Origin: Tubiluchus corallicola
Lineage: Eukaryota > Priapulida > Priapulimorpha > Priapulimorphida > Tubiluchidae
Direction: 5' to 3'
Assembly: GCA_030141605.1 (NCBI GenBank)
Contig: JAQGDQ010000895.1
Location: 18,903-82,902, forward strand
Length of the DNA: 64,000 nt
Shown here: positions 45,901 to 48,900 of the stretch, piece by piece
Numbering within the stretch: position 1 is the stretch's first letter
Layout: every line of letters starts with the position of its first letter
Program-made: the position numbers and the translations under genes
The notes under the pieces: generated by a model
What the model was told of the DNA's origin: nothing
Database searches by the model: none
The model's input: only the letters and a program-made list of their open reading frames with translations

Positions 45901-48900
45901 AGATAATCCATGTTAAAGTTGATGTGCAGGTTATGCATTGAAAAACGTAATCTTGAGAAAATCACTGTTAAAGTCAGCCATTGTTTTTGTCACACTTTTA
46001 CAAAAACTGCTGCACTTAATGTTTAAAGATCATGGTGTTTTAAGAAAATAAAGAAATTTTCTCTATAGATATTTTATTGCCTACTTTTCATAACTTATAA
46101 AATTAAATGTGATTTTACTCAAATGAATTCAAACATGGTTTGATATTTCGGTTGATTGGGCCCGAAGACCTTAAAACTTCACAGTGGTCAGCACTGAAGA
46201 TATGCCACATTGCCGGTAAAAGCATGTCACGAACTGTTTTGTAAACGAAATTTTTGCTTTACTTGAACTATTTTAGACTAGATTTTCCTGCGAGAAAAGA
46301 AATGTTAAATTGGATAAATACTAGTAAAACCTCTGAAATTTCGGCTACGAAACTTGATAAATTTTGCCAAAACCGAAACTTGACCAAAAGTGCAATTATC
46401 ATCAAATGCAGCAAAAATTTCATTTCGGTAACATCCCTTATTTTTGCAGTGTAATTTATTTCTTTATTTGGTATTTTTTCACAGACCCTCCAAAAGACAA
46501 CGGCGGATCAGACATATCTCAGTTCGTATTAGAAATGGATTCAGGTCGTGGTTTTGAAGTGATCTGTGCTGGTCTGGATACAGAGTTTCTGTGCGATCAT
46601 CTAGAGCCCGGTCATACGTACAAGCTTCGTGTATGTTGCACGAGTGCCGGGGGTGCAAGTGAGGTTAGTTAGCTTTTGTTTAGACTTCTGTATAATCATC
46701 TAGAGCCCGGTCATACGTACAAGCTTCGTGTATGTTGCACGAGTGCCGGGGGTGCAAGTGAGGTGAGTTAGCTTTTGTTTAGACTTCTGTGTGATCATCT
46801 AGAGCCCGGTCATACGTACAAGCTTCGTGTATGTTGCACGAGTGCCGGGGGTGCAAGTGAGGTTAGTTAGCTTTTGTTTAGACTTCTGAGTGATCATCTA
46901 GAGCCCGGTCATACGTACAAGCTTCGTGTATGTTGCACGAGTGCCGGGGGTGCAAGTGAGGTTAGTTAGCTTTTGTTTAGACTTCTGAGTGATCATCTAG
47001 AGCCCGGTCATACGTACAAGCTTCGTGTATGTTGCACGAGTGCCGGGGGTGCAAGTGAGGTTAGTTAGCTTTTGTTTAGACTTCTGTGTAATCATCTAGA
47101 GCCTGGTCATACGTACAAGCTTCGTGTATGTTGCACGAGTGCCGGGGGTGCAAGTGAGGTTAGTTAGCTTTTGTTCAGACTTCTGTGTAATCATCTAGAG
47201 CCCGGTCATACGTACAAGCTTCGTGTATGTTGCACGAGTGCAGGGGGTGCAAGTGAGGTTAGTTAGCTTTTGTTCAGACTTCTGTGTAATCATCTAGAGC
47301 CCGGTCATACGTACAAGCTTCGTGTATGTTGCACGAGTACCGGGGGTGCAAGTGAGGTTAGTTAGCTTTTGTTCAGACTGTGGCTTCACACTTGTTAGGA
47401 ACTTGTGATAAGAGAATGGTATATTGTTTATAGTAATTAGTTTAATTTGTTAATTTAAGTCTAGAGTGATTTCCGCAATTTGTGGAAAGTTTGTTTAACT
47501 CTTTCAGGACCGTAAGCGTCTGCTGCATTTTGCATGGGTTCATGAAAACTGCTCTTACTAAGCAGCAATTACATTATATTTGATGTTTTTGTAGGTTTCT
47601 ACTCCTAACACAATGGATTATCAAACTAAATTATATATGAAATGCGTTTGCTTACTTTTGACAAAAAAAATCGATTTTTGATGAATAAATTGAAAAGGGC
47701 TTTCAGTAACTGCTGTGTTTGCATCGTAACAATGTACAGTATCACTTGTGTGAAATTGACTAATGCAGAAAATTTCAACTATCCAGACACAACACTCTGA
47801 TGAATTTTTGTTTCAAGTCAGCTCTATTTCTAATCATTTAGCTATGTCTGTACTCATACATTAGCAGAAAAATCATAGGTCCTATAAGAGCTATTCTGAA
47901 TGGCGTGGTCCTGAAAGAGTTAAGACACGCATCTGTAATTATAGGTTTTTCTCTGCTTCAAATTTTTCATTTTTTCCAGTTTTCTGACGTAACAAGCATC
48001 ACCACACAAGCGGTACTTCCCGGATCGTGTCAGCCTCCTCGTCTACAGGGTAAACCAAAAGCAACATCAATGCATCTCAAGTGGAGTAAGTAGCAATAAA
48101 AACGGTGGATTAAAATAAATTTAAATGTTTTGCCTGCCTTTGCTGAAGAACAGTTGTGCGTTTCGGGCAAGTTGTAAAACTGAATTTAAACAATTTACTT
48201 TTGGGTTAGAAGTTTTAAAGCACAAGAAAACATAAAGCTTAAAAAATTTGTCTTGAAATTTTATACAACACACGTACTGCCTTTTTGCATACAGGGCTTG
48301 CGTCGGCAGTAACGCTGTTTAAGACATGAAATTTAAACAATTTACGTTTGGGTTAGAAGTTTTAAAGCACAAGAAAACACTCCACTTACACAAAACTTAA
48401 AAATTTTGTCTTGCATACATACTGCCTTTTTGCATACAGGGCTTGCGTAGGCAGTAATGCTGTATAAGACATCAAATTTTAACTCCCGCTGTGACCACAA
48501 GGCGCAACCATTTTGACAATAAGTCATTTGAAACCAGTTTAGATAACACCGAGTAAACGTTGAAAAATAATCAGAGTATTCATAGTACACGCATCATTAA
48601 CTAAGGAAAATTTGAAATTACTGTATCTTGTCAATAAGATTAAAAATGCTTTTTTGGTTAGTGAATGGCGCACCCTGGAGGTGAGTCCATGACATTTTAC
48701 CAATTGGTGAAAACATTTTAAATAATTAATAATTACTCTAGTTACATGCAAGCAGGTAAGCGAAATGCTAAGTAATATTAACTTTGCATGGAAAGTTTTT
48801 GGGACATAATTTAGCATTTTTTTCTTCCCCTGATTTACGTTGTGCGTAGGTGACGTCATGTAATGGTGCCGTCGGAACACTATTGCGGGAGATTCAAAAT

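Follow-up and report, generated by a model that had tools for sequence, protein, structure and literature searches.

A 'mirage'-type minisatellite across a splice donor of an FNDC3-like gene in a probable protostome

Tandem repeats over exon-intron boundaries are known from amphioxus, where they have been named 'mirage' minisatellites. In the available parts of two papers (PMC3087553, PMC3902484), they are described for Adh3, troponin C, globin (BflGb6/BflGb9) and PGBD5. According to the available text of PMC3087553, the amphioxus mirages seem not to disturb regular splicing, as judged by RT-PCR, and the cluster boundaries of the globin mirage are excluded from homogenization. Other cases are related. 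Human genes located in segmental duplications have internal tandem repeats (ITRs) where exons meet introns (excerpts of PMC2812944), and the potato RdRp gene gained an intron via a tandem duplication across an intron-exon boundary (excerpts of PMC4974935). The nearest protostome case is a paper on earthworm metallothionein, the accessible part of which reports minisatellites in the first intron, and duplications of the fourth exon in one clone that are absent from the final transcript. No protostome mirage was noticed in the literature searched, partly as excerpts, which has most subscription journals outside its coverage.

The VNTR of the human CBS gene has units that contain alternative donors. 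This 31-bp VNTR is located at the exon 13/intron 13 boundary, and more units are reported to result in lower activity (available text of PMC5188458; a table entry on the VNTR is found in PMC1395315, also available in part).

Here, we analyze a stretch of 64,000 nucleotides (the window) with an array of this kind. A preliminary description, made from the letters alone, had pointed to the amphioxus 'mirage' minisatellites, and the term is indeed found in the two amphioxus papers, as far as their text is available.

Two arrays across donors of one gene

Two tandem arrays in the window straddle splice donors of the same gene. The features are as follows (all on the plus strand).

46485..46663: exon M with a phase-0 donor (179 nt), which supplies the 3' part of an FN3 domain (from the acceptor at 46485, the frame and the 2crm match)
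46587..47379: donor-straddling minisatellite (array 1), 8 units of 99 bp with 77 exonic and 22 intronic bases each (from TRF and unit comparison)
46587..46685: unit 1, exon end and donor 1 (GAG|GTTAGT, between 46663 and 46664), the putative functional copy (from homology over the junction)
46670..46672: in-frame TAG for exon M at intron bases 7-9, encountered when a later donor is used
46684..47356: seven 79-nt pseudo-exons at 99-bp steps, the first at 46684-46762 and the last at 47278-47356; spliced from donor 1, each reaches a stop at its 4th codon
46762..46768: donor 2 (GAG|GTGAGT, exonic side ending at 46762), of all eight the one nearest to the consensus (from donor scoring)
47980..48085: next exon, phase 0, after a 1316-nt intron
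52063..52325: exon with its donor inside array 2 (from frame and phase)
52317..52624: second donor-straddling array (array 2), 48-bp unit, 6.4 copies, with seven CAG|GT donors at 52325 + 48n (from TRF)
52738..52938: exon after array 2, with a phase that fits donor 1 of that array at 52325

Array 1 is a real structure. A TRF run on the window places 8.0 copies of the unit at 46587-47379 (97% matches, 0% indels), and a chance origin is excluded because the array is 793 bp long at such identity. Unit 1 combines the last 77 bases of exon M with the 5' splice site and the first 22 bases of the intron. The unit length, the exact 99-bp spacing and the composition of exon end, donor and intron bases had been recognized in the preliminary description, and TRF and the unit comparison agree with it. 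Two small details have to be corrected, the end of units 6-8 (see below) and the start of the array, which had been placed at 46592, while TRF has it at 46587. The count of eight takes in the end of the real exon itself (46663), so that seven extra units (units 2-8) are intronic.

The eight units differ from their own consensus at 0-3 positions each. Unit position 8 is C in the exon copy and T in all seven intronic copies, which fits a single founding duplication with later growth within the intron, the exon copy being outside the turnover. Units 6-8 have two changes in common, one of which is also present in unit 2, and units 4-5 have one change in common. These distinct changes, some of them in runs of adjacent units, bear on the question whether the copies arose by misassembly of a repeat. 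In favour of such an error, the contig (C1404) is dense in arrays and terminates in a tandem array. The changes that set copies apart speak against it, as do the donor-bearing arrays on other contigs (see below), so that we consider this explanation very improbable, although the copy number might be affected by misassembly. When the assembly (343.5 Mb in 2344 contigs) was searched at the DNA level with positions 46500-47500, the single match was the region itself.

The gene that carries both arrays is best assigned as FNDC3-like, its FN3 repeats being closest to FNDC3A by homology. Exon M by itself matches human FNDC3a (PDB 2crm) with an E-value of 6.8e-14 (55 bits); two titin chains have lower E-values, which they reach via many weak domains. 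When exon M is joined to its flanking exons with donor 1 as splice site, 2crm is matched with 112 bits in one stretch (query 4-110, chain 6-115), and two titin chains total more (180 and 156 bits). For a shorter piece over the junction, 2crm is the best match and the alignment is gap-free across ...GGASE|FSDVT.... The exons around array 2 match receptor phosphatase F first (89 bits), followed by titin chains and other receptor phosphatases, and FNDC3a (1x4x) is matched with 42 bits. Pfam fn3 is above the cut-off in the joined exon sets of both regions, and intron phases are consistent at both array-bearing donors. Close to the C terminus encoded by the last exon, a hydrophobic stretch was seen by eye, a candidate for the C-terminal transmembrane segment of the FNDC3 family. 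The join from 52938 to 56418 in the gene model has a phase misfit, so that the acceptor there is wrong; this affects neither array.

A further 53-bp unit is found in two separate arrays, at 40243-42584 (44 copies) and 53085-55264 (41 copies), which are about 94% alike and sit in different introns of the FNDC3-like gene.

The first nine bases of array 2 belong to the exon with its end at 52325. Its donors are GTGAGT, GTATGT or GTACGT. The unit carries TTACCTGTA, and an intronic donor is predicted to be able to pair with the TTACCTGTA of the preceding unit in a short hairpin (-10.0 kcal/mol by itself; z = -2.16 when the first two units are folded together).

Probable choice of the first donor and fate of the copies

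The donors of array 1 are located between 46663 and 46664 and at + 99n from there (n = 0-7). Scored with a simple, hand-entered frequency matrix, donor 2 reaches 7.3, while donor 1 and the six others, all GAG|GTTAGT, score 4.0 each. Using donor 1 results in an exon of 179 nt, using a later one in an exon of 278 nt or more, and with any of donors 2-8 the exon-frame TAG (intron bases 7-9, counted from donor 1) becomes part of the exon. Thus, two claims of the preliminary description hold, namely that the second donor is nearer to the consensus than the real one and that any later donor brings in an in-frame TAG just past the first. A third holds in part. All units had been said to end in an acceptor-like TTTTGTTTAG, giving 79-nt pseudo-exons. 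The pseudo-exons do exist, but units 6-8 end in TTTTGTTCAG.

Inclusion of a pseudo-exon would shift the frame, with a stop at codon 4. The acceptor-like strings of array 1 score 0.8-2.5, and the true acceptor scores 4.2. Since an early stop is met with all later donors and all pseudo-exons, the alternatives tested are nonsense paths. From the reading frame and the homology over the junction, the choice of donor 1 would thus be a necessity. Some mis-splicing is nevertheless plausible, since donor 2 is nearer to the consensus than donor 1.

Two other interpretations were considered. The array might have been coding, 99 being a multiple of three, yet the exon frame runs into a TAG a few bases beyond donor 1, and inclusion of a pseudo-exon leads to a frameshift and a stop, so that this was rejected. 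That RNA structure conceals the decoys is not supported: the predicted cost of opening donor 1 (five contexts) shows no clear difference from that of the decoys in either array (1.7-5.0 vs 1.2-5.7 kcal/mol in array 1; 8.6-9.6 vs 4.3-12.3 kcal/mol for the six decoys of array 2).

We consider it likely, at a probability of about 85%, that array 1 is a minisatellite that arose by tandem duplication over an exon end and expanded in the intron, that copy 1 is the working one, that the seven decoys are removed, and that position fixes the choice. In an FNDC3-like gene, the founding tandem duplication would have reached from 77 bases before the exon end, over the 5' splice site, to 22 bases into the intron, where the array would then have expanded. 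The exon-proximal copy would still serve as the exon end, and the seven intronic copies would be decoys that are normally spliced away with the intron. Use of a decoy would lead to a stop codon and presumably to decay of the mRNA. Donor 1 would most likely be favoured by its position, as it is transcribed first and defines the shortest exon. The array would be tolerated because the first donor is chosen all the same. This reading is supported by array 2, which has the same layout, and by the donor-led arrays at exon ends of citrate synthase and HSP60 (see below).

The decoys might instead be functional. Competition between donors 1 and 2 would then send a fixed share of the transcripts to nonsense-mediated decay and thereby tune FNDC3 output. 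The scores of donor 2 and donor 1 (7.3 vs 4.0) and the early stops in the alternatives are in line with this, as is the lower activity reported for higher unit numbers of the human CBS VNTR (available text of PMC5188458). The copies, however, vary like neutral sequence: 7/77 positions are variable in the exon-derived part of the array 1 units and 2/22 in the intron-derived part. We thus regard tuned output as unlikely.

According to the mirage model of intron gain, as laid out in the available part of PMC3087553, a copy might also be on its way to a new exon, so that array 1 would represent the beginnings of intron or exon gain. The units have acceptor-like sites and donors and could thus provide 79-nt exons. 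These would, however, be out of frame with a stop as the fourth codon, and their acceptor-like sites score lower than the true acceptor (0.8-2.5 vs 4.2), so that we give this explanation very little credence. An origin by tandem duplication, with copies that would be neutral and spliced away, remains the reading that we prefer.

Arrays in the window and elsewhere in the genome

Tandem arrays with a period of at least 10 and at least 2.5 copies were merged into 30 arrays, which cover 19,149 bases (30%) of the window. They were compared with the 21 exons of our gene model, some ends of which are approximate, mainly in the 5' part. There are only two array-exon overlaps, those of arrays 1 and 2. 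When the arrays were rotated against the exons, the mean was 7.9 overlaps, and 7 of 1207 rotations gave two or fewer. No exon is engulfed by an array, against a mean of 5.0 under rotation. Exons are thus avoided by arrays, which is the pattern that purifying selection would bring about, and in the two remaining overlaps the first donor has kept its place. As overlaps are fewer than with random placement, nothing shows a targeting of exons. The preliminary description had tied the special standing of such arrays to an excess of exon overlaps over chance; in the comparison made here, which covers the window only, the result (2 vs 7.9) speaks against a special link to exon ends. The shortfall is no argument against array 1 being real.

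When the window is cut into eight pieces of 8 kb, array cover (period of at least 10) is 10-58%, and L022, upstream of it on the same contig, has 27%. Other contigs have a cover of 0-3.5% in 8 samples of 5 kb and, in 2-kb samples, of 0-55% (9 readable ones, a tenth being entirely N); the maxima belong to short contigs. In the samples examined, array-rich sequence is found mainly in short contigs. In 200 kb of contig C1924, arrays of at least 2.5 copies cover 0.7%, as opposed to 30% in the window, and an origin of the window contig from a different organism was considered for this reason. This was rejected, since C1924 and 7 of the 18 samples L023-L040 (one sample being all N) share dispersed repeats with the window, in the samples with up to 95% identity over 142 bp, so that the contig belongs to the same genome. 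The window also has a TC dinucleotide run of 251.5 copies with a T run inside (4212-4712).

Arrays with serial donors were searched for genome-wide with a pattern of three donors. At a spacing of 31-61, there are 674 + 908 matches (1582) vs 478 + 202 (680) for the reversed pattern, and at a spacing of 62-92, there are 562 + 791 (1353) vs 396 + 245 (641); an acceptor-like pattern has 379 + 296 (675) vs 225 + 142 (367) in its control. These counts are match positions with many per array, so that significance is not claimed. The donor pattern matches array 2 and misses array 1, the donors of which do not fit; in 333,925 bases it has no further match, and the reversed control has no match in those bases.

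The matches listed for the spacing of 31-61 make up 12 arrays by hand count, and the 5' ends were inspected in 11 of them, the twelfth starting at a contig end. Three of these loci are given here.

C29:74850-75450 (L046): donor-led array directly after a citrate synthase exon
C29:99250-99850 (L047): donor-led array directly after an HSP60 exon
C5:115450-116050 (L042), minus strand: array of a 33-bp unit at about 114068-115594, some 46 copies going by the coordinates, with a unit that resembles the exon end

Among the matches listed, the first donor ends a homology-proven exon in 2 of the 11 inspected arrays. The citrate synthase exon aligns to a solved citrate synthase with 99 bits, over 66/66 residues that extend to the final complete codon ahead of the donor. 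The exon of mitochondrial HSP60 aligns with 60/60 residues (77 bits); it is unnamed by Pfam and was identified from PDB. The citrate synthase and HSP60 arrays are located on one contig of 111 kb. In another 3 of the 11 (L042, L051 and L044, again among the matches listed), a likely exon precedes the donor. For L042 and L051, this is an acceptor followed by an open frame up to the donor, and for L044, an ATG with a signal-peptide-like frame that ends at the donor. The L042 exon has no match in Pfam and PDB; it may code for a phosducin-like protein. The L051 exon has nothing in Pfam and a weak match to filamin (E-value 0.024), and the L044 exon has nothing in Pfam. In the remaining 6 of the 11 among the matches listed, no exon is evident in the few hundred upstream bases. 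As the arrays were selected by their donor motif, 5 of 11 is no estimate for arrays in general.

When exon end and next copy are compared by eye, clear exonic sequence is part of the unit for L042, L051 and HSP60. In the L044 and citrate synthase arrays, the unit takes in no more than the final 3-4 bases of the exon, and the array in effect starts at the donor, so that these are donor-led arrays rather than full mirages. Donor-bearing arrays are thus apparently recurrent in this genome.

The excess of triple-donor and acceptor-like matches over their controls would also be expected if the birth of minisatellites were biased to splice donors, e.g., via DNA damage linked to transcription or splicing. 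However, the matches are not independent, dozens coming from single arrays, and the reversed motif is unmatched for gene content. In addition, exon overlaps in the window are below expectation rather than above it. We consider such a bias to be quite unlikely.

Host animal, meaning and comparison with known systems

The host is probably a protostome and not amphioxus, as suggested by a kinase exon and a microRNA-like hairpin. The kinase exon, located on C1924, is closest to 1kob (E-value 4.5e-29), followed by 1koa (3.7e-25), which we take to be the twitchins of Aplysia and C. elegans, respectively. None of its five matches below 1e-15 is named titin, and one (9qj2) is without a name. A hand-typed bantam pattern has one match in the genome and none in the control, with a predicted hairpin of -36.5 kcal/mol; bantam is known only from protostomes. 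Rfam at gathering cut-offs leaves this bantam-like hairpin unnamed and reports nothing in the window. The GFP family is abundant in lancelets, and a search for it, run without a positive control, had 0 matches. Searches for Chitin_bind_4, Eryth_link_C and Haemocyan_bet_s, also without a positive control, had 0 matches each, as had the search for COX1 and that with a hand-typed mir-1994 pattern.

Array 1 is of value as a natural test of minisatellite birth and tolerance at exon ends. Near-identical donors that follow one another in identical local surroundings provide a clean natural test of 5' splice-site choice. Such arrays can separate transcription order, exon length and sequence strength as candidates, and in array 1, copy 2 is even nearer to the consensus. 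The arrays at conserved housekeeping genes of an animal that is apparently unrelated to amphioxus suggest that mirages reflect a high rate of minisatellite birth and are not a peculiarity of lancelets. It is tempting to speculate that this is a protostome genome in which many genes, including those for HSP60 and citrate synthase, carry donor-led minisatellites, that splicing among tandem donors is routine there, and that minisatellite birth may be favoured at transcribed donors; we put this forward only tentatively. For gene annotation, there is a warning: genes that bear such arrays should be prone to wrong exon ends.

Among the systems described, the earthworm metallothionein minisatellites differ from array 1 in that the text available to us does not place them on a boundary. 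The duplication in potato RdRp is, like array 1, one across a splice junction, but it occurred at the 3' end of an intron and resulted in a new working intron, as stated in the accessible part of PMC4974935. The human ITRs share with array 1 a minisatellite expansion at exon-intron boundaries that alters intron structure. According to the excerpts of PMC2812944, they create novel introns or stay in transcripts, whereas the alternatives tested for array 1 are nonsense paths. The human CBS VNTR is likewise a VNTR at an exon end; it differs by its vertebrate host and its shorter unit and is placed in non-coding sequence by the available text of PMC5188458.

The amphioxus mirages are the closest. 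In these as in array 1, as far as their description is available, units span an exon-intron boundary, and there is one real copy and many copies with splice signals. Array 1 consists of tandem units over such a boundary (77 exonic and 22 intronic bases), and homology and stops point to one authentic boundary, the other copies being intronic. Length instability between alleles or cells is a further trait of the amphioxus type; array 1 has its single match in the assembly. The differences are in the host, which is probably a protostome, and in the genes, as FNDC3-like, citrate synthase and HSP60 are not among the mirage genes named in the available text. Array 1 is thus a 'mirage'-type minisatellite, of a known kind in an unexpected host.
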